The notes under the pieces were generated by a model. It worked only from the letters and a program-made list of their open reading frames with translations. It had not been told where the DNA came from and made no database searches. From the NCBI GenBank assembly GCA_016932295.1, contig JAFGDC010000566.1, positions 1 to 11,135 of the forward strand: 11,135 bases of DNA, given 5' to 3'. The first letter of the stretch is position 1, and each line of letters opens with the position of its first letter. Both the position numbers and the translations under genes were made by a program. Shown here one piece after another: positions 1 to 11,135 of the stretch. This DNA comes from a candidate division CSSED10-310 bacterium. GTDB taxonomy: Bacteria; CSSED10-310; JAFGDC01.

Positions 1-104
1 GCGCGGAAAGGGGACGATTCAGACCGGGCAAACCGCATAGCGGACGCCGGAAACGGATGCCGGCCTGAAACTTTGCCGATGCCCTGAGTGCATGCGTATT
101 TTGC
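1..104. other. Left-edge non-coding or gene-end stretch
   Basis: No gene can be supported here. Frame 1 on the plus strand is open from base 1 to a TGA at 85-87, so the tail (28 codons) of an upstream gene is possible, but the peptide has no recognisable character. Two imperfect 10-base direct repeats, CGGACGCCGG at 41-50 and CGGATGCCGG at 54-63, are present; their meaning is unknown. Confidence 0.4.
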
Positions 105-132
105 TTGACTCGCGACGGGCGCTTGCTACCAT
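105..132 (+). promoter_or_regulatory. Sigma70-like promoter of the DUF4920-like gene
   Basis: A TTGACT -35 box (105-110, five of six consensus bases) is followed after 16 bases by TACCAT (127-132, four of six). A TG one base upstream of the -10 box (124-125) fits an extended -10 element. The start codon lies 55 bases downstream, giving a short leader. This is a by-eye match only. Confidence 0.55.
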
Positions 133-186
133 CAACAACCAGCGCTAACGTGCGTATCGGACAACTTTTTCAGGAGATGAAAAGAG

Positions 187-852
187 ATGAAAAACTTTTA
201 CATACTTACAGCCGTCCTGGTCACGGCGCTTATCATGTTCGCTCCCGCCATTCATGCCGCCGGTCCCGAGGACCATGCCGGAGAGCCCCATGATCATCAT
301 GAGGAAATCGCTGCCTTTGATGAAGCCGTCCAGAATCCTGACAGGCCGGCCCAGTACCATCTTGGCCAGGCCATCGACGAGACTGCCCTGGTGGCTATCG
401 AAACATTGTTGGCTGAGCCGGAATCCTATGTCGACAAGACCGTCACGGTGAAAGGCGATGTCATACAGGGCTGCCACCATGCCGGTGGCTGGATCAGGGT
501 CGGCGACGCCCGGTACAACATCGATGCGTATTGTGACAAGACCTGGCACTATCCAACCGATCACAAGGGATATACCGCCATTGTCACCGGAACGGTCAGG
601 TCGCACCTGCTTCTCAAGGAAAAACTGGCCGGCTACATTGAGCACCAGAACAAGCTGCATGAAGGGAACATGAAACTCGAGGACTATCCTGACGGCCTCA
701 ACATCTATTATATCCAGAGCATTGGTGCGCTCCTGACGATGATGGATGCGCAGGTGGAAAACGTGAAGCAAGTGGAACAGGTCGAGAACGCCGACTGCCA
801 AGAGCACAAGACTGAACCTGTCACTTCCCTGCCCGGGGAGCGCGCCCACTGA
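187..852 (+). CDS. Exported His-rich DUF4920-like (OB-fold) protein
   Basis: The 221-residue product starts with a typical signal peptide (residues 1-24 or 25, cleavage near Ala24-Ala25), so it should act in the periplasm or outside. The mature N-terminus is rich in His and acidic residues (His30, 35, 37, 38). The core (about 75-140) contains a pattern of the type TVTVKGDVIQGCHHAGGW, followed by Cys116 and a closing strand TAIVTGTV. This resembles the DUF4920 family, small periplasmic proteins with an OB-like fold and a conserved Cys region; the molecular function of that family is not established. Cys96-His97-His98 and Cys116 could bind metal or form a disulfide (inference). The C-terminal tail (185-221) is polar and probably helical or disordered. 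The start at 187 is preferred because it alone gives the signal peptide; AGGAG at 172-176 is 10 bases upstream, a little far. An out-of-frame ATG at 177 was discarded. It stands alone and converges on the DA1-like gene. Confidence 0.75.
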   Translation: MKNFYILTAVLVTALIMFAPAIHAAGPEDHAGEPHDHHEEIAAFDEAVQNPDRPAQYHLGQAIDETALVAIETLLAEPESYVDKTVTVKGDVIQGCHHAGGWIRVGDARYNIDAYCDKTWHYPTDHKGYTAIVTGTVRSHLLLKEKLAGYIEHQNKLHEGNMKLEDYPDGLNIYYIQSIGALLTMMDAQVENVKQVEQVENADCQEHKTEPVTSLPGERAH

Positions 853-877
853 CAATTTCAGCGCGCCAGCAGTGAGT

Positions 878-901
878 CCGCGCAGCCTGAAGGCCGCGCG
901 G
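878..901. terminator. GC-rich hairpin downstream of the DUF4920-like gene, possible terminator
   Basis: CCGCGC (878-883) pairs with GCGCGG (896-901). An inner GCC (885-887) pairs with GGC (892-894) across a TGAA tetraloop, with a single A/C mismatch between the two stems. It begins 25 bases after the stop codon. There is no T-run on either strand, so intrinsic termination is uncertain; it may instead protect a 3' end. The rest of 853-1013, between the two convergent genes, shows nothing else. Confidence 0.35.
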
Positions 902-1013
902 GCAGCTTCGGAACATCTCTTCCCTGACCGTGAATGACTTATTCCGGGGAAGGGGTATGGAACTGGGTATGAACACGGTGGTAGTGGATGCGGTCAGTGG
1001 TCTGGTGCCTGAC

Positions 1014-2327
1014 CTACCGGCCGGTCACGTATTCGAGTACACCGCTGAAGCCGCGTTTCTTCTCGATCGCTCTGATTTTTCTGAAACCCATGCCGTACAT
1101 GTCTTGCCGGGCCTCGATAACGGCCATTTGGTCCGTCATCTTCAAGCGGGCCAGCACCTGGTAGCTCACCCACTCGGCGAAGCCTTCCTTCAGTAGCCTG
1201 CTTTGTTCCCTGCTGCTGTGAGCCGTGTGCCAGGCGTGCGCCAATTCATGCGCGGCCACCGCCACCAGGACCCTGGGCGGCAGGGCGGTGATCACATACA
1301 CCGTGCGGTCGTCGCCCTGCTGTCTGAACAGGCCGGTCGCCTTGTCAGGATCACCGCCGGGGATGTCCCGCGCCAGTCGTTCCAACCGATCACCATCGGT
1401 CAGTACCAGCTCGGGCAGTATGTCCAGCTTCATGCCCATGGCTGCCATGAGCCTGGCGGTTTTCCTGTAGAGCCGGAGGGCATCCTCGCGCCTGACCACC
1501 CCATGCCGGCTGCACGCATCGCATAGCCTGCGGCCGTCGCTCAAGACCCTGAACCGGTTCCCGAGTGGTACACCGCATACGTCGCAGCGCTTCCGCTCCA
1601 CTCGGCAGCGGTCACAGAACTTTTTCTCCGAGCCGGGATACTTCCAGGAATGATCGGTCATCACCCGGCCGCACGCCCCGCACCTGGGCAGATTGTCGAA
1701 GCATTCCCCGCAGACGGGTTTACCATCCACTTCGTACCCGCCGTTGAAGGGTAAACCGCAGACCGAACAATGGGGCCGATCACGGTAGCAGTCGTCGCAG
1801 AATACCGATTCGCCAGCCGTTGTCTGGTAGCGCCAGAAACGCTCCCCCACCGGCCTGTCGCACAACGCGCAGCGTTGCCGGTGTTCGAGGCAGTCGGTGC
1901 AATAGTGTTGCCCGCGCAGCAAGGTTGCCTTACCAATGATGGGCAGTCCACAAGCCGCGCAGGTCACGGCCTTGCGGCGGCACTCATCACACAGCCTCAA
2001 GGTGCGTTCCCCGCGTTCGAACTCGACATACTTTCCCAGCAGCGCCCGGCCGCACCGATCGCAGACAGCGGTTGCCGCCGCGCAAGCGGGGCAAAGAACG
2101 GCGCCGCCCACCGTCCGCCACTCCCGCGTCGGCAGTCCGCAACGGGCGCACTCAGGCAGCCGTTCCTTACATGCGCTACAGACCACCAACCCGCCTTCAT
2201 ACCGGAAGTAGGCCCCGGTTATCTCCTTGCCGCAAAAACCGCAATGAAGCTGACCAGCCGCGTGCCCGATGAACACCGCAGGGCTCACGAAGGTCAACAA
2301 CGCGACGCACATCACGAGACCTCTCAT
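1014..2327 (-). CDS. Exported LIM-like zinc-finger array with DA1-type metallopeptidase domain
   Basis: The 437-residue protein has three parts. (1) Residues 1-25 are a signal peptide (hydrophobic core CVALLTFV, then AVFIGHAAG). (2) Residues 29-272 hold 16 CxxC knuckles, 32 cysteines, forming eight zinc-ribbon units that begin at Cys29, 60, 89, 123, 153, 187, 216 and 248. Every second unit starts CxxCGLP or CxxCGVP, so the array is really four LIM-like double fingers of about 63 residues. (3) Residues 280-437 are a zinc peptidase domain with HELAH (360-364) followed by AW and by KEGFAEW, where Glu381 or Glu385 would be the third ligand. Sequence around HELAHAW, EG...QVL and the later YGMGFR matches what I recall of the plant DA1 C-terminal domain (HEMMHAW, EEGICQVL, YGDGFR). 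DA1 is a ubiquitin-activated peptidase that also carries LIM fingers. The start at 2327 is preferred over an in-frame GTG at 2351: it has GGGGAG five bases upstream and places the signal peptide at the N-terminus. The substrate is unknown. It is transcribed alone and divergently from the three-pass membrane protein. Confidence 0.88.
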   Translation of the reverse strand: MRGLVMCVALLTFVSPAVFIGHAAGQLHCGFCGKEITGAYFRYEGGLVVCSACKERLPECARCGLPTREWRTVGGAVLCPACAAATAVCDRCGRALLGKYVEFERGERTLRLCDECRRKAVTCAACGLPIIGKATLLRGQHYCTDCLEHRQRCALCDRPVGERFWRYQTTAGESVFCDDCYRDRPHCSVCGLPFNGGYEVDGKPVCGECFDNLPRCGACGRVMTDHSWKYPGSEKKFCDRCRVERKRCDVCGVPLGNRFRVLSDGRRLCDACSRHGVVRREDALRLYRKTARLMAAMGMKLDILPELVLTDGDRLERLARDIPGGDPDKATGLFRQQGDDRTVYVITALPPRVLVAVAAHELAHAWHTAHSSREQSRLLKEGFAEWVSYQVLARLKMTDQMAVIEARQDMYGMGFRKIRAIEKKRGFSGVLEYVTGR

Positions 2328-2332
2328 CGCAT

Positions 2333-2338
2333 CTCCCC
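2333..2338 (-). promoter_or_regulatory. Ribosome binding site fixing the DA1-like start at 2327
   Basis: GGGGAG on the minus strand lies five bases before the ATG at 2325-2327. The in-frame GTG at 2349-2351 has no comparable purine tract and would add eight polar residues before the signal peptide. Confidence 0.6.
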
Positions 2339-2365
2339 GGACGCTGAACACTCGCGCCCGTTATC

Positions 2366-2395
2366 AATCTAATGTAAGGAAGGGCCGCGGTGCAA
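2366..2395 (-). promoter_or_regulatory. Possible promoter of the DA1-like gene
   Basis: On the minus strand TTGCAC (2390-2395) is followed after 18 bases by TAGATT (2366-2371, four of six -10 bases). It lies about 40 bases before the start codon. The -35 match is weak (TTG only). Confidence 0.35.
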
Positions 2396-2454
2396 ATCAC
2401 TGCACTTCAGCGCCGCGCCGCCGGCTGCTGAGCATCGGTGTCGTTCGTTTCGCT

Positions 2455-2482
2455 TTGCGCCGGAGATGTGCTGTAGTACACT
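2455..2482 (+). promoter_or_regulatory. Possible promoter of the three-pass membrane protein gene
   Basis: TTGCGC (2455-2460) and TACACT (2477-2482) are separated by 16 bases and lie 40 bases before the ATG at 2522. A strong AAGGAGG (2509-2515) follows, six bases from the start. The promoter match is moderate. Confidence 0.4.
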
Positions 2483-2521
2483 CTCTTCGTTTAACAGCGT
2501 CCGACACCAAGGAGGGGGTCA

Positions 2522-3166
2522 ATGGAAAACAACGGTACTGTCGAAAAACTCGAAAAAAAAGTGAATTTAAGGCGTTTGCTCGTAGGATTGCTGCTGCTGG
2601 TCGTGTCCACTTATATCTCCGCAAAGTACTTTCATAGCTATTCTATCTCGTTGACATTTCAGGTTTTCTGGGTATTCATCTGCGTAGCCGGATTCGTCTC
2701 GGGGATCATTCTCACCTTCTCCGCGATCCAGCGCAAAAGCTGGTGGAATTACATCATCACACCACTGGTGGTGATCATGGGCGTCATTTTCGTCATGAAT
2801 TATTTGTACTATTCAGGAGTGGTCCAGATCATCAACGAATACCCGGAACTGCGCGCCGAATACTCCAAGAACCGGGCCACGATGGCGGACATGGTGGCCC
2901 GGCTCACCGTATTGGAGACCGAAAACCGCATGATGTCGGCGATGATGCATCTGCAGAACGCCGAACTGCTCGTCAAACGTGACGGCAAATTCAATGAGGC
3001 GGCGCTGGAACTGCAGCAGGTCAGAGAACTGCTGAAAGGAACCGAATTCAAGGAGATGGAGGCGTTGAACAGCCTCATTTCCGATCTGGAGAAGGTGCCG
3101 TCGGATCTCCATACCCGTATCGTATGGCTCACCATCGATATACAGAAAGCCCTCGGGGAAAAATGA
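2522..3166 (+). CDS. Three-pass membrane protein with cytoplasmic or periplasmic coiled-coil tail, function unknown
   Basis: I do not recognise a family for this 214-residue protein. After a charged N-terminus (1-18, EKLEKK) it has three hydrophobic segments at about 19-34, 45-67 and 77-97. The rest (about 105-192) is strongly helical and heptad-like, with many Glu, Leu, Met and Lys residues, for example around LTVLETENRMM (128-138) and ALELQQVRELL (161-171), so a coiled coil is likely. A short helix ends the protein (199-212). With three spans the tail lies on the opposite side from the N-terminus; the positively charged N-terminal LEKKVNLRR suggests N-in, hence tail outside, but this is uncertain. 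The start is firm: AAGGAGG at 2509-2515 is six bases away. It forms its own transcription unit, divergent from the DA1-like gene, and ends just before a strong terminator. A structural or scaffolding role would fit, but nothing in the sequence shows it. Confidence 0.8.
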   Translation: MENNGTVEKLEKKVNLRRLLVGLLLLVVSTYISAKYFHSYSISLTFQVFWVFICVAGFVSGIILTFSAIQRKSWWNYIITPLVVIMGVIFVMNYLYYSGVVQIINEYPELRAEYSKNRATMADMVARLTVLETENRMMSAMMHLQNAELLVKRDGKFNEAALELQQVRELLKGTEFKEMEALNSLISDLEKVPSDLHTRIVWLTIDIQKALGEK

Positions 3167-3174
3167 CCAAAATG

Positions 3175-3207
3175 ACAAAACCCGCAGCCGCCGGCCGCGG
3201 GTTTTGT
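3175..3207. terminator. Strong bidirectional intrinsic terminator
   Basis: ACAAAACCCGC (3175-3185) pairs perfectly with GCGGGTTTTGT (3197-3207). Inside, GCC (3187-3189) can pair with GGC (3193-3195). The A-rich left flank and T-rich right flank let it act on both strands. It starts 8 bases after the membrane protein stop codon and lies 19 bases beyond the stop of the convergent phasin-like gene, so it should end both transcripts. Confidence 0.85.
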
Positions 3208-3226
3208 TATACCAGCGTGGTGGGTA

Positions 3227-3829
3227 TCAGGCGCGCATCTTCTTGATCCGCTCCGCCTCGCGTCCGATGGTCAGGCGTTTCTTGTTCTGATCCTCATACG
3301 CCACCACCTCGTCCAGCTTGTCATCGGGCAGGTCCCGCATCCGATCCACTATCTTGTGAACGTTCAACTCGTCATATCCCTCGAATGGCTCGGAAACCTT
3401 TTTAACAACAGGTTTCCTGGCGGCTTTCTTCACGTCTTTCTTCTCAGGCGCCGCCACCTTCTCTTCGACCGCCGGCCACAGGTCGTGCAATTGCGCCAGT
3501 ATGTCCTTCAACTGCCGGGGCATGTGATCGGTGATGGGCTTGATGAGAGGAGCCGTCGCCTCGTGCGCCCGTGAAACATTCTTTCCGACCTCTTCACGGA
3601 CCTTTTTGACCGCCTGCTCCAGTTCCATGAATGCACGGTTCATCGTCTGGTTCTGGAACACCGGACTGGAATCCACGAATTCCTCGCCCATCTTCACCAG
3701 CCTGTCGAGCATCTTCTGGCTGTTGGCAAACCAGTATTCGACGGTTTTCATCCCGGTCTGCCGGGCATCGTCAACCATCTTCCTGGCCTGAGTATGCATG
3801 TCCTTAAGGTTTACCGTGATCTTCACCAT
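3227..3829 (-). CDS. Phasin-like helical protein with C-terminal YDELxVxxI domain
   Basis: The 200-residue product has no signal peptide and no membrane segment. Residues 1-125 are predicted helical and amphipathic, with a phasin-like stretch (ARKMVDDARQTGMKTVEYWF at 15-34, then FVDSSPVFQNQ, then a coiled EQAVKKVREEV). A Lys/Ala/Pro-rich linker (126-147) follows. The C-terminal domain (150-198) begins YDELNVHKIVDRM and ends in a basic helix. That last pattern resembles, from memory, a small domain (YDxLTVxxIxxRLxxL...YE) attached to coiled-coil and lipid-droplet or granule-associated proteins in other bacteria. Phasins coat polyhydroxyalkanoate or lipid granules; this role is an inference here, since no PHA synthase is in the window. 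The start is firm: AGGAGG at 3835-3840 sits five bases before the ATG. It is monocistronic, driven by a strong promoter carrying a palindrome (see 3897-3913), and ends near the shared terminator at 3175-3207. Confidence 0.7.
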   Translation of the reverse strand: MVKITVNLKDMHTQARKMVDDARQTGMKTVEYWFANSQKMLDRLVKMGEEFVDSSPVFQNQTMNRAFMELEQAVKKVREEVGKNVSRAHEATAPLIKPITDHMPRQLKDILAQLHDLWPAVEEKVAAPEKKDVKKAARKPVVKKVSEPFEGYDELNVHKIVDRMRDLPDDKLDEVVAYEDQNKKRLTIGREAERIKKMRA

Positions 3830-3893
3830 GAGTTCCTCCTTTTATTTCCGCGAATTTTCAAGCGTATCTTCAATCCTGCCACCGCACAGTAAG

Positions 3894-3922
3894 AGCATAA
3901 CGCATTGCGTTATTCGTGTCAA
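3894..3922 (-). promoter_or_regulatory. Strong sigma70-type promoter of the phasin-like gene
   Basis: On the minus strand a perfect TTGACA (3917-3922) is followed after exactly 17 bases by TATGCT (3894-3899, four of six). It is the best promoter match in the window. The leader to the ATG at 3829 would be about 55-60 bases and holds an AAAGGAGG ribosome site. Confidence 0.8.
3897..3913. promoter_or_regulatory. Perfect 17-bp palindrome within the promoter, probable operator
   Basis: ATAACGCA (3897-3904), a central T (3905) and TGCGTTAT (3906-3913) form a perfect inverted repeat. It covers the -10 half and most of the spacer of the phasin-like promoter, where a bound dimeric regulator would block RNA polymerase. 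The regulator is not in the window; a TetR- or GntR-type repressor would fit the symmetry, but this is a guess. Confidence 0.6.
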
Positions 3923-3963
3923 CTAATTCAATACAAGAGAATTTTCATTATAAAAAGCAGCCG

Positions 3964-4734
3964 TTACCGGCGCACGATGAGGACCGTCGCCGCCACCAGT
4001 ACCACCACTCCCGCCACGATTCCGGCCATGAGCAGCCAGTTGATCTGCCGGGGCATCTCGACCTCCGCCCGCAGTTCTTCCCGCGCCTGCCCCTCGCCGA
4101 TGAGCTGCAGCAGCGGTATACGCCATTCCACGGTCTGCATGGTCGCATCCAGCGTGCCGTTGCACGAGAGTATCCTTGGTCCATGCAACTTTACGATGAT
4201 GTACCTGTTGCCGAGCATGGTTTGCATAAAGGAGGCGCCGAGCGCCTCGGCGAATGGATTCTCGGGTGCATAGGGATCTTTCTCCGGGTTTCCGAACACC
4301 TGGTGGAATTGGAGATTGCCGTTTTCGAGCCGGTCGATGGTCAGTTCTGAGCGCCCCTCCGGTCTCAGTTTTCCCTTGTCCCGTTCCGTCACGATTTGCC
4401 GGTGCAGGTCATCCACCACGCTGATATCCCGCACATCGATGTCGAATACGAAATGCCGCATATTACCGAGTTTGTATTCCTCGTAATCGAAGCGGGCGAT
4501 GTTTGGATTCGATTCAAGGTCTGCCTTGGTGGCTTCGTAATTCTCGCGCAGTTCCTGGAGTGGATCGTCACGGCCCTCCTCCCTGGCCATGTTCAACAGG
4601 ATTTCCGAAAAACCCATGTCCAGTTTGAAGCGTCCCGAACCATCCTCGTTGACCCAGATCTCCTCGTACAGTTCGAAGCAGCCGCACGCCAGCAGTGGAA
4701 TGAGTGCGAGTGAAATCCATCGCATTGCTTTCAT
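3964..4734 (-). CDS. LppM-like lipoprotein with C-terminal membrane anchor
   Basis: The 256-residue protein starts MKAMRWISLALIPLLACGC, a lipoprotein signal peptide with the modified cysteine at Cys17 (LLAC) or Cys19. The extracytoplasmic part (20-229) opens with EEIWVNEDGSGRFKLDMGFS, the strand pattern typical of the LppM/DUF3153-type domain as I recall it, and continues as a mixed alpha-beta domain with many acidic residues. Residues 231-254 (INWLLMAGIVAGVVVLVAATVLIV) form a transmembrane helix ended by Arg-Arg, so the protein is tied to the membrane at both ends. In other bacteria such proteins are surface or envelope lipoproteins of unclear function. The start at 4734 is chosen because AAGGAG (4741-4746) is six bases upstream and it gives the lipoprotein signal; the open frame extends to 4857 but that part is polar and not signal-like. 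It is transcribed alone, and its stop is 42 bases before the phasin-like promoter -35 box. Confidence 0.75.
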   Translation of the reverse strand: MKAMRWISLALIPLLACGCFELYEEIWVNEDGSGRFKLDMGFSEILLNMAREEGRDDPLQELRENYEATKADLESNPNIARFDYEEYKLGNMRHFVFDIDVRDISVVDDLHRQIVTERDKGKLRPEGRSELTIDRLENGNLQFHQVFGNPEKDPYAPENPFAEALGASFMQTMLGNRYIIVKLHGPRILSCNGTLDATMQTVEWRIPLLQLIGEGQAREELRAEVEMPRQINWLLMAGIVAGVVVLVAATVLIVRR

Positions 4735-4740
4735 GGTGCG

Positions 4741-4746
4741 CTCCTT
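4741..4746 (-). promoter_or_regulatory. Ribosome binding site fixing the lipoprotein start at 4734
   Basis: AAGGAG on the minus strand lies six bases before the ATG at 4732-4734. It rules against the longer frame that begins at 4857. Confidence 0.65.
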
Positions 4747-4801
4747 GTGGTCTGTTTCCGCCGCCTGTGCATCACGGGATCTGCCTGGGAGTCCGTCATC
4801 G

Positions 4802-4823
4802 CCCATGCCGGCCGCGGCATGGG
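4802..4823. repeat. Perfect 9-bp inverted repeat in the lipoprotein 5' leader
   Basis: CCCATGCCG (4802-4810) and CGGCATGGG (4815-4823) are separated by GCCG. It lies 68-89 bases upstream of the lipoprotein start and would be inside its leader if transcription starts near 4862. There is no T-run, so it is not an ordinary terminator; an RNA hairpin or a DNA-binding site are both possible. Confidence 0.6.
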
Positions 4824-4868
4824 ACCGGTGACAGGCGCGTCCTGTTTTCGGCTCCATTAATTTCAGAT

Positions 4869-4874
4869 ATCATA
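4869..4874 (-). promoter_or_regulatory. Possible -10 element for the lipoprotein gene
   Basis: TATGAT (minus strand) matches five of six -10 bases and lies in a short AT-rich island (4857-4898) between otherwise GC-rich sequence. No good -35 box is found at the right distance (GGAACA, 19 bases away, is the best). The same island probably also holds the promoter of the divergent glycosyltransferase gene, but I could not place that one. Confidence 0.3.
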
Positions 4875-4931
4875 CTATCCTGTTTTTTTATCGTGTTCCA
4901 GCGGCAGTCGACGTTTCTACCGCCGCCTGGA

Positions 4932-4971
4932 CCGGGCCGATCCCCGGGCCGGCATGATCGGACGCCGGCCC
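4932..4971 (+). promoter_or_regulatory. Competing hairpins directly before the glycosyltransferase ribosome site
   Basis: GGGCCGGC (4946-4953) pairs perfectly with GCCGGCCC (4964-4971), ending five bases before the GAAGG ribosome site (4976-4980). CCGGG (4932-4936) can instead pair with CCCGG (4943-4947), and CCGATC (4937-4942) with GATCGG (4956-4961). These pairings exclude one another, as in leader-controlled genes. No known riboswitch is recognised and chance in GC-rich DNA is possible. Confidence 0.35.
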
Positions 4972-4987
4972 TCATGAAGGGCGATTC

Positions 4988-6433
4988 GTGAAGCAGTCAT
5001 CCCGATACATATTGGTGGCCATCCTTTTCACCGTCCTGCCGCGCTTTCTCCGCATCCTGTATGGCGCTGTCCGGATCGAGGATCCCAATTATGTCTACGG
5101 TGCGTTCCTCATCTTCAAGGGGCAGTCGCCGTACATCGATTTTGCCATGCCCAACCTGCCGGTTCTGGAGCAACTCCTCGCCTTGCTCTACAGGCTGTTC
5201 GGTCCATCGTATCGAATCGCCGAATTGCTCACCGCCCTCGGCGTCATGAGTACCGCTCTGCTGCTGTATGCCATCGGCCGGCGTCTCTGGGGCGTGGCGG
5301 CGGGTCTGGTCGCGGCCTTCGCCTACTCATGGCATCCACTGGTCTTTCGCTATCACCTTTTCGATCGCGAGATTTTCACTGCGCTGGCGGTGGCAGCGAT
5401 GGTCCACATTCTCGTGACGCAGCCCTCGGGCCGTCGCCGCGCCCTGCTCACCAGCGCCTGCATCATCGCCGGTTTCGCCTGTAAACAGACCATGGCGGTG
5501 CCGGCCGTCGCCCTGGGTCTCTTCCTGCTGAGCCGCCGTTCCCTCAAGGAGCTGCTGTGGACCGCCGGTTTCACCGCTGGCGGCGTCGGGGTGCTTTGTG
5601 GCGCATATTATCTCGAATATGGTCAGGATTTCCTTCTGCAATCGCTGGTATTTCATTTCATCAAGGGGCAGGCGGCGCCCGTTCCGGTGAAGATGCTCTG
5701 GTTCACCCAGGGTCTCCATTTCATCCTGCCCATGGGGCTGCTCGGTCTTGCCGGGCTTGCCATGCAGCGCCGTTCCGTGGCGGTTCTCCTCTGGGCGCTG
5801 GGGGGACTGGAGTTTCTTTTCGATACCATCGCCAGCGCCACTCTCTGGCCGCATTATCTCATTCCGGCTCTCGTACCCCTCGCCCTGGCCGCCGGGTGGG
5901 TTGTTCATGCCGCTGTCCACACCCACCGCTTCATGCGGCCTCTGGCCATCGCCGCCGGTCTCCTGGGCGTGTTGGTATTCGCCGCCGTTACGTGGCGCAC
6001 CAATGAACCCCTGCTCGCCGCCCTGGGTTTTTCCGGCGTTGACCGTGCGGCTTTGATGAAACTGGGCGCCAGGGTACGGGACCTCACTCCAGAAGACGGC
6101 GTGATCATCGCGCCGCCGCTGGAAGCACTGGTCTGCCGACGGGTGAAGCTCATCAATTTCAAGGATAATTGGGGTGTCATGCAGGAACTTCGCGATGCGG
6201 TCCGCGGCGGTCGCCGGCGGGAGTTCAACGAGCGGATGGCATCGTTGACCTTCGCGGAGATCAGGCGGCGCTCCGCGAACCAGTGGCTGCCGCTGGTGGC
6301 GGAGTCATTGAGGCAGCGCCGGATCGCCGCCGTGATCGTGAATTACGAGCTGCCCCTGGATCAGCGATTCCTCGAGAATTGCGGGTATCGGAAGGTGTTC
6401 GATGATCCACCCGTGTGGATTCCGGGGTCTTGA
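4988..6433 (+). CDS. GT-C type membrane glycosyltransferase (PMT_2/ArnT-like)
   Basis: The 481-residue protein is highly hydrophobic, with roughly nine to eleven membrane segments, up to about residue 337, and a soluble C-terminal part (338-481). The first loop carries acidic residues (Glu31-Asp32 in RIEDPNYVYGAFLIFKGQSPYIDF, shown here only in part as RIEDPNY), as expected for the catalytic loop of GT-C enzymes. These transfer sugars from polyprenyl-phosphate donors to lipids or proteins on the outer face of the inner membrane. Further family-like features are the WHPLVFRYHLFDRE loop (115-128), KQT (166-168) and WPHYLIPALVPLAL (287-300). The exact acceptor cannot be told. The start is the GTG at 4988, seven bases after GAAGG (4976-4980); the hydrophobic N-terminus begins at once from there. 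The gene is followed after one base by the YfhO-family gene, so the two are surely co-transcribed and probably translationally coupled. Confidence 0.8.
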   Translation: MKQSSRYILVAILFTVLPRFLRILYGAVRIEDPNYVYGAFLIFKGQSPYIDFAMPNLPVLEQLLALLYRLFGPSYRIAELLTALGVMSTALLLYAIGRRLWGVAAGLVAAFAYSWHPLVFRYHLFDREIFTALAVAAMVHILVTQPSGRRRALLTSACIIAGFACKQTMAVPAVALGLFLLSRRSLKELLWTAGFTAGGVGVLCGAYYLEYGQDFLLQSLVFHFIKGQAAPVPVKMLWFTQGLHFILPMGLLGLAGLAMQRRSVAVLLWALGGLEFLFDTIASATLWPHYLIPALVPLALAAGWVVHAAVHTHRFMRPLAIAAGLLGVLVFAAVTWRTNEPLLAALGFSGVDRAALMKLGARVRDLTPEDGVIIAPPLEALVCRRVKLINFKDNWGVMQELRDAVRGGRRREFNERMASLTFAEIRRRSANQWLPLVAESLRQRRIAAVIVNYELPLDQRFLENCGYRKVFDDPPVWIPGS

Positions 6434-6434
6434 C

Positions 6435-8825
6435 ATGGAGCATGTAACCGTTGTCCGGGTGTGGCGTGAGTCGCTCTGCGTGGGTGCGCTCCTGCTGCTG
6501 CTCGCGACCGCCATGTTCCCACACGCCGTGCTTCTTGGTGAGACGCTTCTTCCCGCCGATCTCCTGTATTTTTACTCTCCCTGGCGGGAACTGGCCGGAA
6601 CGAGGTTCGACCAGCCGAGTAACTGGATTTTGTTCGACGAGCTGCTGGAGTTCGCTCCGTGGCGGGAGTATTCGCGCAGCATGCTGCGTCGGGGTTTGGT
6701 ACCTCTTTGGGATCCGAGCGCTTTCTGCGGTTACCCATTCACCGGAGTCCTGCAGACAGCGGTATTTTATCCTCCTGACCTGGGCATGATTCCGGTCTCC
6801 ATGGCGCGGTTTCCGACCGTGCGCGGCCTGTTCCATCTCCTGGTGGCGGGATTGGGCATGTTCTGGTTTGTGCGGCGTATCCCCCTTGCTCCCCAGCCGG
6901 CTGGATTCGCCGCGGTGTTGTATTCATTCTCGGGTTTTTTTATGGCTTGGTTCGGTCACCCCCACTTCAAGGTGGCAGCCTGGCTGCCCTTCATCCTGTT
7001 GTTCACCAGGGCCCTGTCGCGCGCGCCTGCCATGCCGGCGGCGGCTGGTCTGACCGCCACCCTGGTTCTGCAGTACCTGGCCGGTCATATCGAAACATCG
7101 GTTCACCTGCTATTCGCCTGGCTGCTGTACTCGCTGTCCCTCCTTCTCCAGCATTCCCGGCGCCGGGCGCGATTCATCCTCACCGTCCTGGCCGCCCAGA
7201 TACTGGCGTTGCTGCTGGCGGCGGTCCAACTGGCGCCTTTCGCTGAATACCTGCGTCACAGCTCCGCCTACAATGTCCGCAAACACGGCGTGTGGGTGCG
7301 GCCCCATTTCCCGTCTTTCCTGGCGTGGTGTCTTGTGCAGCCGAATTTCTTCGGCTCCAACGCCGACGACAACTACGCCTTGCAGGAATTCAATTCAAGC
7401 GAGGTGATGGGCGGCTTTGTGGGCGCCGTCCCCCTGCTGTTCGCCGTCACCGGCCTGTGGTTTCTGCGCCGTGACCGGGAGACGGCGCGGCTGGCGGTGC
7501 TGTTGCTGTTCGGCTTGGGGGTCGTCTTCAAGATTCCACCCATTTACCAGGCGGTGCACCTGGTTCCTGGAATGAAGATGTCGTACAATTTCAGGTTCCT
7601 GCTGGTGGTGGCGTTCGCCACCGCCGGGCTGGCCGCCCGCGGCGCCGCGCGGGTGGCGGCGGCGCGGCGGGAAAGCTGCGTCAGGAGGTGGTTCCTGATG
7701 GGGGCGCCCCTCATGACCGCGGTTGGTTTCGTCATGTATCACGCCTGGCGACCCATGTTCGCGGCGCGTGGCATGATGGCCTATGCCCGGGTAAATCTTC
7801 TCTGGCTAATGGTGCTGACATCGTTCTGTCTTCTCCTGGTGGTGACCAGGTCCCGGCTGCCGCGCACCCTCTGGTGGAGCGCACTTCTATTACTGAGTTT
7901 CCTCGACCTCTGGCGCATCGGCTACGGGTACAACCGGTCCTTTCCACCCGGCCTGCTCTATCCGGAACTGCCCCCGGAGCTGCTCCCGGCGGCATCCCAG
8001 CCAGCCAGGATCATGCCCCTGGGTTACACGTTTCCACCTCATACCTGCCGCCTGTACGGATTTCATGATATCCGCGGCAATGATGCCCTGACGCCGCTGG
8101 CGGTGGAGGAATACCTGGCCCTGGCCGAGCCCGACATCCAGGCGCCCGATCTCTTGCCCGCCATGCGGCTGCTGCAGATGAAACGGTTCGACCATCCCTT
8201 GCTCGATTCGCTCAATGTGCGGTATGTCATCACGCCGCAGGATACCGGCCTGGGTTACTGGCTGGCGGGCGGCGACTTCGATCCGGCCCCCTGGCGCCGC
8301 ACCTTCCGGCGAAACGGGGTGGAGGTCTACAGCAATGCGCGTGCGCTGCCCCGCGCGTACCTGGTGGATGACTATGTGTGCTTCGATACGGCCGGGCAGG
8401 CGTATGCCGTTCTGCGGGACAATGCCCGGGAGGGGCGGTTGCGGCACGTGGTGGTCGATGCGCCGGCGCCGCCCGCAGTCCCCTTGCCGGCATCAGCGGC
8501 ACCGCCCGGTACCGCCCGGTTCATCGTCTACGATGCCCATCGGCTTGAATTGTCGGTCACCGCCGACAGGGAGTGCCTTCTCATCCTGAGCGATACGTAC
8601 TTTCCTGGATGGCGGGCGCAGGTTGATGGTTCGGCGGCACCGGTGCTTCGCGTGGACCATGCGTTCCGCGGCCTGCTGCTGGAGGCAGGCGATCACCTGG
8701 TTCGGTTCATGTATGAACCATTCAGTTATCGTCTCGGCTTGTTCACCTCGTTGATCGGCGCCCTGGTCTGCGCCGCTGTGCCCATCATGATCCGCCAGCG
8801 CTTCAACGGGGTTCACCACGGCTGA
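6435..8825 (+). CDS. YfhO-family large membrane protein (GT-C-like)
   Basis: The 796-residue protein has an N-terminal membrane part with about a dozen hydrophobic segments and a soluble C-terminal part. Family-type motifs are seen at LLPADLLYFYSPWREL (38-53), FDELLEFAPWREY (67-79) and LWDPSAFCGYPF (91-102), all before the second membrane span, and SDTYFPGWRAQVDG (719-732) near the end, followed by a last membrane helix (about 760-782). These are typical of YfhO-family proteins, which are linked to glycosylation of lipoteichoic acid or other envelope polymers in some bacteria; in most they are uncharacterised. A Pro/Ala-rich linker lies around residues 676-694. The start at 6435 is chosen because it follows the previous stop codon (6431-6433) by one base; an in-frame upstream ATG at 6402 would overlap the glycosyltransferase by 32 bases and add polar residues. 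The upstream ribosome site is weak (GGGG at 6424-6427), which fits translational coupling. Confidence 0.85.
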   Translation: MEHVTVVRVWRESLCVGALLLLLATAMFPHAVLLGETLLPADLLYFYSPWRELAGTRFDQPSNWILFDELLEFAPWREYSRSMLRRGLVPLWDPSAFCGYPFTGVLQTAVFYPPDLGMIPVSMARFPTVRGLFHLLVAGLGMFWFVRRIPLAPQPAGFAAVLYSFSGFFMAWFGHPHFKVAAWLPFILLFTRALSRAPAMPAAAGLTATLVLQYLAGHIETSVHLLFAWLLYSLSLLLQHSRRRARFILTVLAAQILALLLAAVQLAPFAEYLRHSSAYNVRKHGVWVRPHFPSFLAWCLVQPNFFGSNADDNYALQEFNSSEVMGGFVGAVPLLFAVTGLWFLRRDRETARLAVLLLFGLGVVFKIPPIYQAVHLVPGMKMSYNFRFLLVVAFATAGLAARGAARVAAARRESCVRRWFLMGAPLMTAVGFVMYHAWRPMFAARGMMAYARVNLLWLMVLTSFCLLLVVTRSRLPRTLWWSALLLLSFLDLWRIGYGYNRSFPPGLLYPELPPELLPAASQPARIMPLGYTFPPHTCRLYGFHDIRGNDALTPLAVEEYLALAEPDIQAPDLLPAMRLLQMKRFDHPLLDSLNVRYVITPQDTGLGYWLAGGDFDPAPWRRTFRRNGVEVYSNARALPRAYLVDDYVCFDTAGQAYAVLRDNAREGRLRHVVVDAPAPPAVPLPASAAPPGTARFIVYDAHRLELSVTADRECLLILSDTYFPGWRAQVDGSAAPVLRVDHAFRGLLLEAGDHLVRFMYEPFSYRLGLFTSLIGALVCAAVPIMIRQRFNGVHHG
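8501..8520 (+). repeat. 10-bp perfect tandem duplication inside the YfhO-family gene
   Basis: ACCGCCCGGT occurs twice in a row (8501-8510, 8511-8520). It codes for the Pro/Ala-rich linker (around AAPPGTARF). The unit is not a multiple of three, so the two copies are read in different frames, and loss of one copy would shift the frame. Confidence 0.8.
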
Positions 8826-9033
8826 AAATCATTGCCTGGTTTCCTATCGGAGACGGCCTTACGCCCTTCTGCCGATTCAATCCGCGGGATCGGTTGTGCA
8901 AAGAATGGAATGCCTCTCAGCAGTACCATCTGATTTCATTGCATGACGATAAGGACTGTTTCCAAATGGGCGGCCGCAGCCGGATCGTGAGGTGGTGCTG
9001 CTTTGAATACGAGGCGTTTCGGCCGATAACGAG
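8826..9033. other. Convergent spacer between the YfhO-family and radical SAM genes
   Basis: These 208 bases separate two convergent operons. I see no hairpin followed by a T-run on either strand, and no RNA gene. A 62-codon frame starting at 8894 (+) runs into the radical SAM gene and has no ribosome site or family likeness, so it is not called. Confidence 0.5.
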
Positions 9034-10008
9034 TTACAAAGAATTGACGATGTTCAGGATGGCGCCGGGTGACAGTCGATAGATGAAATTCATCTCCAGC
9101 CGGGGCGCACACCAACAGTTGACGCATGCCATCGGCGGCAGCGCCAGGAAGGCGTTTCTGAAGCCCACGGCAAGGGCATCGTTGGTTACCCCGCGCACCA
9201 GTACCCGACCGCAATGGTAGACTCTTCCGTCCGGTTCCACCCGGCAGGAGACCCGGCCACCGGCGCAGGTGATCCTGGCGCCCTCCGGCCAGGTTAAAAA
9301 GTGATGGAGCACCGGCAGTGATGTCGCCACTGCCCGATGCTTGGCTCGCATCCGAATCAATTCCCTGACGACTTCCACGAATTCCACCCGGGGCGTGATG
9401 GGATTCTCCGCCGTGCCTCCCAGTTCCATGGGGGTCGCCGGTTGAAACGTCATCCTGCAGCCGCAGTCCTCGGCGATGCTCACCAGTTCCCGCAGGCGGT
9501 GTGCGTTTTCGGTACTGACCACGCTCAGGAAATTGACCTTGATCCCCCGGCTTCGCGCCGCCGCCACCGCTTTCATGACGCCGTCGAAGGTGCCGGCGCC
9601 GCGCACCGCATCGTGCACCTCCCGCGGCCCGTCCAGGCTCAACTTGAGCAGGTCGAGTCCTGTCAGTTCGTCGATGCGGTCCGCCACAAGCAGTCCGTTG
9701 GAGTTCATCCCGACAGTGATGCCGTGGCGCCGGCAATGGGAGATGATTTCGCCGATGTCCTCGCGCATCAGCGGTTCGCCTCCGGTGAAGGAGATTCGCC
9801 TGGTGCCGGCGCTTGCCATCTGGCGGATAAGGTCCGCCACCTGGGCGGTGGTTAGTTCCCGGTGATCCTTGCGCCAGATGCCGCAGTATCGGCAGGATAG
9901 GTTGCAGCGCTTGGTCAGGGACCAGCCCACCACCAGCGGCACCCGCCTGCCCAGGAGCCTGGCCGCCGCCAGCGTGATTCCGACCCGCAGCTTCTGGTGA
10001 AGCTTCAT
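9034..10008 (-). CDS. Radical SAM enzyme (MoaA/PqqE/SkfB type) with Cys-rich SPASM-like tail
   Basis: The 324-residue protein carries the radical SAM signature CNLSCRYC (Cys35, Cys39, Cys42), which binds the 4Fe-4S cluster and S-adenosylmethionine, then GGEP (76-79), NSNG (102-105) and LSLDG (123-127) of the TIM-barrel core. The C-terminal part holds Cys248, 255 and 266 and a closing CVNCWC (295-300), a pattern suggesting one or more auxiliary iron-sulfur clusters as in SPASM or twitch domains, though the spacing is not the canonical one. The enzyme family does many radical reactions (peptide, cofactor and lipid modification); the substrate is unknown. The start at 10008 overlaps the stop of the upstream gene (ATGA, 10005-10008), with GGAGG at 10019-10023 and AAGG at 10013-10016 upstream, so translational coupling is likely. 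The frame is open further upstream to 10413, but that part is antiparallel to nothing useful: it lies inside the preceding gene in another frame. Co-translation with a flippase-like protein suggests a lipid or envelope substrate (inference). Confidence 0.88.
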   Translation of the reverse strand: MKLHQKLRVGITLAAARLLGRRVPLVVGWSLTKRCNLSCRYCGIWRKDHRELTTAQVADLIRQMASAGTRRISFTGGEPLMREDIGEIISHCRRHGITVGMNSNGLLVADRIDELTGLDLLKLSLDGPREVHDAVRGAGTFDGVMKAVAAARSRGIKVNFLSVVSTENAHRLRELVSIAEDCGCRMTFQPATPMELGGTAENPITPRVEFVEVVRELIRMRAKHRAVATSLPVLHHFLTWPEGARITCAGGRVSCRVEPDGRVYHCGRVLVRGVTNDALAVGFRNAFLALPPMACVNCWCAPRLEMNFIYRLSPGAILNIVNSL

Positions 10009-10994
10009 GATGCCTTCACCTCCGCCCTGACTCCACCGAACGTGCGGATGAGGAAGAAGGGCATCACCAGCAGCCCGATCACCGGCAGCATCGCATATTC
10101 GACGAGTGAAACGAGCACGCCGGTGGCGAAGAGCGCCTCGTTGCTGCCGTATGTGGCGAACAGCAACACGAACGCCACCTCCCTGGTGCCCAGTCCGGAA
10201 ATGGTCAGTGGCAGGTTGCCGATGACGATGATGATGGGTATGACGAAGAGGATTTCCGCGAAGGGAATCTGAAGTCCCATGGCTCGCGTGGCCAGGAACG
10301 AGGAGATGATCTCGGTGCAGGTGAACACCATTGAATAGATGAGCAGCCATCCCTTGGTCCATTCGTCGATGTGGCTGAAGCAGCGCAGCAGTCTCAGCAC
10401 GGTCGGCTTCCATGGGAATTCGTGCCGGTCAGCCCAGTGTACCAGGCGGCCGCCCCCTTTTTGAAAGAGCAGCACTCCAGCCGCCACGGTGAAGATGATA
10501 CCAAGGGCTGGCAGCCGGTGCAGGCCGGTGGCGATGGTGCCGATCACCAGGATAAGCATGGCGCCGATGAGGTTGGAAATTTTATCGAACAGCAAAGCGC
10601 TGACCACTTCGGAGAAGGGAATCCCGTGCCGGCGCTGCAGGTAGAAGCCCTTGACCATTTCACCCACCTTGGCGGGGATCACGAACTTGATGGGTGACGC
10701 CCCCACGCGGATGAACAGTGATTCCCTGAAGCTCAGTGGATGTTGAATGGCCCCCAGAATCCGCACCAGTTTGTCGGCCGCCATGAAAATGTTGCCGGAA
10801 AGCGAGATGACGATCATGGGCAGGAGGTATTCCACCCGCATGCCGCGGATCAGCGCGATGGCATGCCCCACATCCACGTGCCGCAAGAGCAGGTAGAAGA
10901 CGCCGGCGGTGAGCGTGATGGTGCCGCCCGCCTGCAGGCATGTGGCCGGCCACCGTCCCGCCAGGTTATTCATCCGCCTGTCGCTGCCGGTCAT
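10005..10994 (-). CDS. LPG-synthase TM-region/UPF0104 family membrane protein
   Basis: The 329-residue protein has about eight membrane segments. Motifs fit the family of the lysylphosphatidylglycerol synthase transmembrane region (UPF0104, AglD-like): FVIPAKVGEMVKG (104-116), a conserved DKISNL (137-142) and NLPLTISGLGTRE (260-272). This domain in MprF flips lipids across the membrane; stand-alone members are often found beside glycosyltransferases and are thought to move or help make lipid-linked products, with function mostly unproven. No soluble aminoacyl-transferase domain is present. The start at 10994 is uncertain: only GGTGA about seven bases upstream supports it, and the ATG at 10973 (Met8) is an alternative. 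It follows the purC-like gene after 42 bases and overlaps the radical SAM start by four bases, so all three should be in one operon. Confidence 0.82.
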   Translation of the reverse strand: MTGSDRRMNNLAGRWPATCLQAGGTITLTAGVFYLLLRHVDVGHAIALIRGMRVEYLLPMIVISLSGNIFMAADKLVRILGAIQHPLSFRESLFIRVGASPIKFVIPAKVGEMVKGFYLQRRHGIPFSEVVSALLFDKISNLIGAMLILVIGTIATGLHRLPALGIIFTVAAGVLLFQKGGGRLVHWADRHEFPWKPTVLRLLRCFSHIDEWTKGWLLIYSMVFTCTEIISSFLATRAMGLQIPFAEILFVIPIIIVIGNLPLTISGLGTREVAFVLLFATYGSNEALFATGVLVSLVEYAMLPVIGLLVMPFFLIRTFGGVRAEVKAS

Positions 10995-11023
10995 TGGTTG
11001 GTCACCGTTCCGCCGCCGTGCCG

Positions 11024-11047
11024 GTCATCGTGCCAGTCATCGTGCCA
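11024..11047 (-). repeat. 12-bp perfect tandem duplication over the purC-like stop codon
   Basis: GTCATCGTGCCA (plus-strand reading) occurs at 11024-11035 and again at 11036-11047. On the minus strand each copy contains CGA TGA in frame, so the duplication gives the purC-like gene two in-frame stop codons 12 bases apart. Confidence 0.85.
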
Positions 11048-11135
11048 TGAGCCGCTCCACCACTTCGTTGTATTTACGAACCGTGGTGTACACAACCGAT
11101 TCCGGCAGCTCCGGCGGCGATGATTCACGGTCCCA
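11037..11135 (-). CDS. purC: C-terminal end of SAICAR synthase (PurC), partial
   Basis: Only the last 32 residues and the stop are in the window; the gene runs off the right edge. The end reads WDRESSPPELPESVV, then YTTVRKYNEVVERLMAR. This matches the well-known C-terminus of the longer form of phosphoribosylaminoimidazole-succinocarboxamide synthase as I remember it (W/D-K/R...PPxLPxxVVxxTxxKYxEAYExLTG). PurC joins CAIR and aspartate in purine synthesis in the cytoplasm. The call rests on this short stretch alone. The 42-base gap to the next gene suggests co-transcription, although the functions look unrelated. Confidence 0.65.
   Translation of the reverse strand, partial: WDRESSPPELPESVVYTTVRKYNEVVERLMAR

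Follow-up and report, generated by a model that had tools for sequence, protein, structure and literature searches.

The window analysed here is a stretch of 11,135 nucleotides of a candidate division CSSED10-310 bacterium (contig JAFGDC010000566.1, positions 1 to 11,135), and the gene in question occupies its positions 1014..2327. The plus strand has no open frame there, stops being present, and the gene is read from the minus strand. Its product, P0001, is probably a Sec-exported zinc metallopeptidase of the DA1-like gluzincin group that carries an array of four LIM-like modules. The original prediction for this locus, made from the sequence alone, was sound in its observation and largely correct in its reading. 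The features of the gene are given below, where A3 is an alignment profile of 68 sequences (38 of 75 proteins, the query included, and 30 of 80 loci).

1014..2327, minus strand: complete gene of P0001, a 437-amino-acid, putatively exported DA1-like metallopeptidase with a LIM-like array; ATG at 2327, stop codon at 1016-1014
2333..2338, minus strand: Shine-Dalgarno-like GGGGAG, 5 bases upstream of the ATG (direct reading of the sequence)
2253..2327, minus strand: signal-peptide-like segment, residues 1-25, with cleavage plausible, by eye, after AAG (residue 25) (hydropathy)
2082..2243, minus strand: LIM-like module 1 (zinc units 1-2), first to last knuckle, residues 29-82 (knuckle positions, alternation)
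1890..2063, minus strand: LIM-like module 2 (zinc units 3-4), residues 89-146 (knuckle positions, alternation)
1701..1871, minus strand: LIM-like module 3 (zinc units 5-6), residues 153-209 (knuckle positions, Pfam LIM match)
1512..1682, minus strand: LIM-like module 4 (zinc units 7-8), residues 216-272, adjoining the peptidase (knuckle positions, alignment A3)
1017..1496, minus strand: gluzincin peptidase domain, residues 278-437 (structural superposition, Pfam on the isolated domain)
1236..1250, minus strand: HELAH zinc-binding and catalytic motif, residues 360-364 (translation, conservation)
1185..1187, minus strand: E381, the E of KEGFAEW, likely third zinc ligand (aminopeptidase N alignment, 68/68)
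1095..1097, minus strand: Y411 of YGMGFR, proposed transition-state tyrosine (67/68, one gap)

The N-terminus upstream of the first knuckle is hydrophobic (best 12-residue Kyte-Doolittle mean of 2.66), and in the predicted model the predicted local distance difference test (pLDDT) score is below 50 at residues 1-7 and 9-23. Export was assigned to all proteins by a hydropathy rule, that is, by a hydrophobic N-terminus, and by this rule alone the predicted signal peptide and export are supported. The segment could also be an uncleaved membrane anchor, with the enzyme tethered at the membrane surface, as the longer N-termini of the relatives P0022 and P0032, which contain a hydrophobic stretch, might suggest. 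However, the hydrophobic stretch of the window protein is short and is followed by the small-residue AAG site, typical of a cleaved signal; we consider tethering unlikely, though worth keeping in mind.

The zinc-finger array follows the signal-like segment. Its CxxC knuckles, 16 in number as originally noted, start at residues 29, 50, 60, 79, 89, 113, 123, 143, 153, 177, 187, 206, 216, 238, 248, and 269, whereas 20,000 shuffles of residues 24-280 gave a mean of 3.8 and a maximum of 12. The spacing of the knuckle starts alternates between 19-24 and 10 residues, which gives eight CxxC...CxxC units. When the cysteines are masked, odd units resemble odd ones and even units resemble even ones, a split that ranks first of the 35 possible; the array is therefore composed of four two-zinc modules, in agreement with the four-module architecture proposed before. 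The Pfam LIM family (PF00412) is matched with 25.9 bits at a gathering cut-off of 22.9, the best stretch being residues 153-211. Canonical LIM domains have a ligand set with histidine and a two-residue spacer between the zinc sites. This set is not matched here, and we term the modules LIM-like because their knuckles are all-cysteine and six residues lie between the two sites of each module. In structure, the array matches PINCH LIM4-5 (7d2t); PINCH, a cytosolic adaptor with canonical LIM ligands, differs from the window protein in lacking a peptidase.

Every cysteine of the mature form belongs to a CxxC pair, and all 32 of them align with cysteines in the relative P0002 (198 of 437 aligned positions identical). 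The cysteines of module 4 are invariant or nearly so in A3. The export-like N-terminus would place 32 cysteines outside the cytoplasm, where the pairs might form disulfides or bind other metals; the array would then serve redox chemistry or metal buffering instead of consisting of structural zinc fingers. This seems distinctly unlikely in view of the strict CxxC pairing in alternating LIM-like units, the structural match to LIM domains, the presence of like units in relatives without a hydrophobic N-terminus and the complete retention of the cysteines in P0002.

The motifs HELAHAW (360-366), KEGFAEW (380-386), and YGMGFR (411-416), all named in the original prediction, are located in the translation of the C-terminal domain. 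H360, E361, H364, W366, E381, and G382 occur in all 68 aligned sequences, E385 in 60 (Q in seven and N in one), and Y411 in 67, with a gap in the remaining one. Either Glu381 or Glu385 had been put forward as the zinc ligand. The EGFA around E381 corresponds to NEGFA in the alignment with aminopeptidase N, and E381 is better conserved than E385, so E381 is, on sequence grounds, the likely third ligand. An HExxH motif with a likely glutamate ligand 16 residues on is thus found in a gluzincin-type domain, both in the 68 sequences and by the fold match.

The isolated domain is above the cut-off of 25 for PF12315 (DA1-like), with 26.9 bits and E=3.6e-6. Profile A3 aligned over 303 columns (E=4.1e-53) with 13 bacterial LIM+DA1 proteins, all 13 of which match PF12315, and the alignment included the LIM-like zinc module directly upstream of the peptidase (knuckles 216-272). 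The fold was assigned by superposition (VIA-align 2), re-aligning Foldseek's own list, together with the sequence match to aminopeptidase N; the best structural matches of the domain were M1 aminopeptidases. Matches to DA1-like proteins and to gluzincins were thus both found, and the comparison of sequences and predicted models supports the homology of the C-terminal domain with DA1-like peptidases and its gluzincin fold, as had been proposed.

Several results weigh against this interpretation. The whole protein reaches 23.0 bits with PF12315, which is below the cut-off. Searched with the PF12315 model alone, five genomes bearing relatives gave a match at E<=0.001 in one genome and none over the cut-off, which places the group at the edge of the DA1-like family; in 14 control genomes, the model found nothing. 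The M1, DUF6782, and BSP models match many of the relatives as well, and Foldseek gave no PDB match to the isolated domain at E<=0.001. No ubiquitin-interacting motif was among the Pfam families at E<=1, a search of limited sensitivity for so short a motif, and no shared pathway was indicated by the gene neighbours in the window and 17 loci, ten of these neighbours having been scanned with Pfam.

Since M1 aminopeptidases are the best structural matches and M1 Pfam matches occur in 37 of the 68 domains at E<=0.001, the protein might be an M1-like aminopeptidase, trimming N-termini instead of cleaving within the chain. The M1 enzymes F3 factor (1z1w), ERAP2 (6ea4), and aminopeptidase N have the catalytic-domain fold and the HExxH...E ligands in common with the window protein. 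However, M1 aminopeptidases are multi-domain exopeptidases with HExxH-x18-E spacing, whereas the window protein has x16 spacing and only one peptidase domain, preceded by a zinc-finger array. The exopeptidase motif GxMEN is not present in its sequence, the DA1-like model scores above M1 for its domain, and the gathering score of the M1 family (PF01433), 27.7, is reached neither by the whole protein (19.5 bits) nor by the domain (21.9 bits). In addition, plant DA1 cleaves proteins to fragments, according to the accessible text of PMC5322733. N-terminal trimming therefore appears quite improbable. That the window protein is an inactive binding protein which retained the fold is very hard to credit, for although we infer the activity of the bacterial members, the catalytic and ligand residues are kept in all 68 aligned sequences.

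Plant DA1 (Arabidopsis) was compared by means of Pfam and its published description, in which, as far as the accessible text goes, an HEMMHx15EE peptidase is combined with LIM and LIM-like domains (PMC5322733). This spacing fits the HExxH-x16-E of the window protein if the second E is the ligand, and the isolated domain of the latter is above the cut-off of the same Pfam family. Plant DA1 has ubiquitin-interacting motifs and ubiquitin-dependent activation, whereas no such motif was found in the window protein; only 28 residues, mostly the signal-like segment, lie ahead of its array. No plant names were among the matches listed in the protein searches, one of which gave the best 120 of 251.

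The DA1-like peptidase proposed here would be exported by the Sec route and then lose its signal peptide, leaving four LIM-like modules, with eight four-cysteine zinc sites, ahead of a single-domain peptidase. H360, H364, and E381 would hold the catalytic zinc, with E361 as the general base and Y411 possibly stabilising the transition state. Module 4 and the peptidase may constitute the conserved core of the enzyme, like the LIM-like domain of plant DA1, because both are conserved across the branch of the window protein and align with the LIM+DA1 branch. A cysteine change in the LIM-like domain of plant DA1 abolished ubiquitylation and peptidase activity, which would fit a structural or regulatory role of the module (PMC5322733, accessible text). 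For the three modules farther upstream, binding of a partner or substrate is the most likely role, and they would represent a docking array that chooses targets outside the cytoplasm. Internal cleavage of proteins is probable by analogy with plant DA1, and control would presumably proceed without ubiquitin.

A tree of 110 sequences separated the branch of the window protein (77 rows) from the LIM+DA1 branch (33 rows) with a support of 100/99; the window protein pairs with P0002, also at 100/99. Of the 80 loci, 68 entered the trees, along with nine of the 74 proteins P0001-P0074 and 33 from the LIM+DA1 listings, which comprise 122 proteins (P0074 and P0076-P0196, a few of them without one of the two Pfam labels). 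Twelve loci, either near-copies or without a usable knuckle or frame, were left out by hand, and P0135 has no usable region. Like the window protein, the bacterial LIM+DA1-like proteins combine a LIM-like part with a homologous peptidase, and some of them are already annotated as "protein DA1" in databases (for example, P0085 of Sericytochromatia and P0116 of Syntrophomonadaceae). They differ in forming a separate branch, in having Pfam LIM domains in 12 of the 13 aligned, and in conserved histidines among the ligand positions.

The original prediction considered the exported four-module form worth studying; on the point of export it needs correction. Many LIM+DA1-like proteins share the hydrophobic N-terminus (86 of the 122), although at least one positive in the LIM+DA1 tree set, P0092, is a fragment wrongly called exported. 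In the branch of the window protein, the rule labels 20 of the 77 rows as exported and 56 as not, with one (L040) set aside. The exported rows are P0001, P0002, P0022, P0032, and 16 loci from Omnitrophota, Zixibacteriota, Armatimonadota, Vulcanimicrobiota, CSSED10-310, Gemmatimonadota, Sumerlaeota, and five bacteria without a named phylum; the others are 48 loci in records placed in Chloroflexota, three of SAR324, and five database proteins. Judging by these N-termini, an exported bacterial DA1 is not exceptional. The export label needs eight changes on the quick tree with raw labels and five on the careful tree, after L074 and P0092 were corrected and L040 was set aside. Owing to long branches, compositional bias, and rooting on the LIM+DA1 branch, the direction of change is uncertain. 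One tentative scenario, which we think possible but would not favour, is that DA1 began as an extracytoplasmic bacterial enzyme with the LIM-like module as a built-in control element. The forms in the bacterial cytosol would then have relocated later, as perhaps did plant DA1 with its control by ubiquitin, and the multi-module exported forms would be proteases aimed at surface or periplasmic partners by an extendable zinc-finger array.

The finger array of the window protein is unusually long. Before the peptidase, 4, 8, 10, 12, and 16 CxxC knuckles occur in 3, 4, 3, 8, and 2 of the 20 exported rows, respectively; the remaining 57 rows, including L040, mostly have 4 or 8 (29 and 23 rows). Only the window protein and P0002 have 16 in this position. 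The Roseiflexus loci L036, L041, and L044 are in the same branch and have the same last module and peptidase, but they contain 4 to 5 CxxC/CxxH knuckles and, by the hydropathy rule, no hydrophobic N-terminus. Bacterial LIM-like peptidases of the Roseiflexus type were described by Burroughs et al. 2011, as cited in the accessible text of PMC5322733, the only source linking DA1 to bacteria in the searched literature as far as it was accessible. Proteins of this kind are thus already known, from that publication and from database annotation.

The main interest of the exported four-module variant lies in two questions, how DA1 might be controlled without ubiquitin and how zinc fingers might be assembled outside the cytoplasm. 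The accessible text of PMC5322733 discusses a cysteine switch for DA1 and leaves the latency and activation of the plant enzyme open. A bacterial relative that shares the module and the peptidase, and in which no ubiquitin-interacting motif was found, could be a simple system for this question; since no cysteine of the mature form is unpaired, a cysteine switch would need a finger ligand. Should the protein indeed be exported, the loading of its 16 CxxC knuckles outside the cytoplasm would call for an explanation as well. As no solved structure named DA1 was among the matches listed in the sequence searches (one listing giving the best 60 of 89), a first one might be obtained from a bacterial form.

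With P0001 as the query, matches at E<=0.001 were found in 44 of 132 genomes in the phylum group of the L002 genome and in 13 of 14 in that of the L001 genome; these counts may include both branches. The domain profile matched 44 of 201 genomes in the group of the L064 genome (Herpetosiphon, Chloroflexota), 33 of them at 1e-10 or better, with only 17 candidates scored in many genomes, and 9 of 40 in the group of the L067 genome, seven of them at 1e-10 or better.

Some sequences depart from the common architecture. L040 1-1404 (contig titled uncultured bacterium RUG807) has LIM-like units both ahead of and behind the peptidase domain, and P0075, a weak match of 389 amino acids, consists largely of LIM-like units and has no HExxH motif. 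Short frames of 258 and 221 amino acids that match mainly the peptidase part (L079 5722-6495, without CxxC; G004:C65, G005:C34) accompany a full array protein in the same genome. The frame L057 5835-7454 (UBP9 genome) has the peptidase motif and no CxxC, yet tblastn matches query residues 29-435, possibly because of a frame break.

Membership of the peptidase gene in an operon was considered and rejected, since one flanking gene is convergent and the other divergent. The convergent gene, window 187-852 (+), encodes an exported-looking protein with a His/Asp/Glu-rich stretch behind a hydrophobic N-terminus and a weak DUF4920 match (E=0.0059, under the Pfam cut-off). The product of window 3967-4857 (-) has a C-terminal hydrophobic segment and no Pfam matches at E<=1; an internal Met start would yield a lipoprotein-like signal (LLACGC). 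Window 4988-8825 (+) encodes a PMT_2-type glycosyltransferase and a YfhO-like membrane protein (Pfam), the called genes overlapping by 32 bases, and in L008, too, there is a PMT_2 gene (1470-3440), directly after the peptidase gene.

The neighbour survey used crude picking of open reading frames, which missed the peptidase itself in L001 and L022. Shared neighbour groups lie almost wholly inside near lineages (the Omnitrophota loci, the CSSED10-310 loci, and L035 with L049), and the ten neighbours scanned with Pfam are of mixed kinds. There are two exceptions: radical SAM proteins common to the window and the CSSED10-310 loci, which at 24-30% identity are a superfamily-level match, and a group of related proteins in L005 (12269-13069), L016 (12100-13074), and L019 (10324-11748), which joins two lineages and is located several kilobases from the peptidase gene. 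At the three loci of CSSED10-310, the gene of the exported peptidase stands next to and divergent from a related large gene (L016 3136-5760, L018 3033-5669, L019 3125-5782), which in L016 encodes a ClpA/B-type AAA+ protein according to Pfam.
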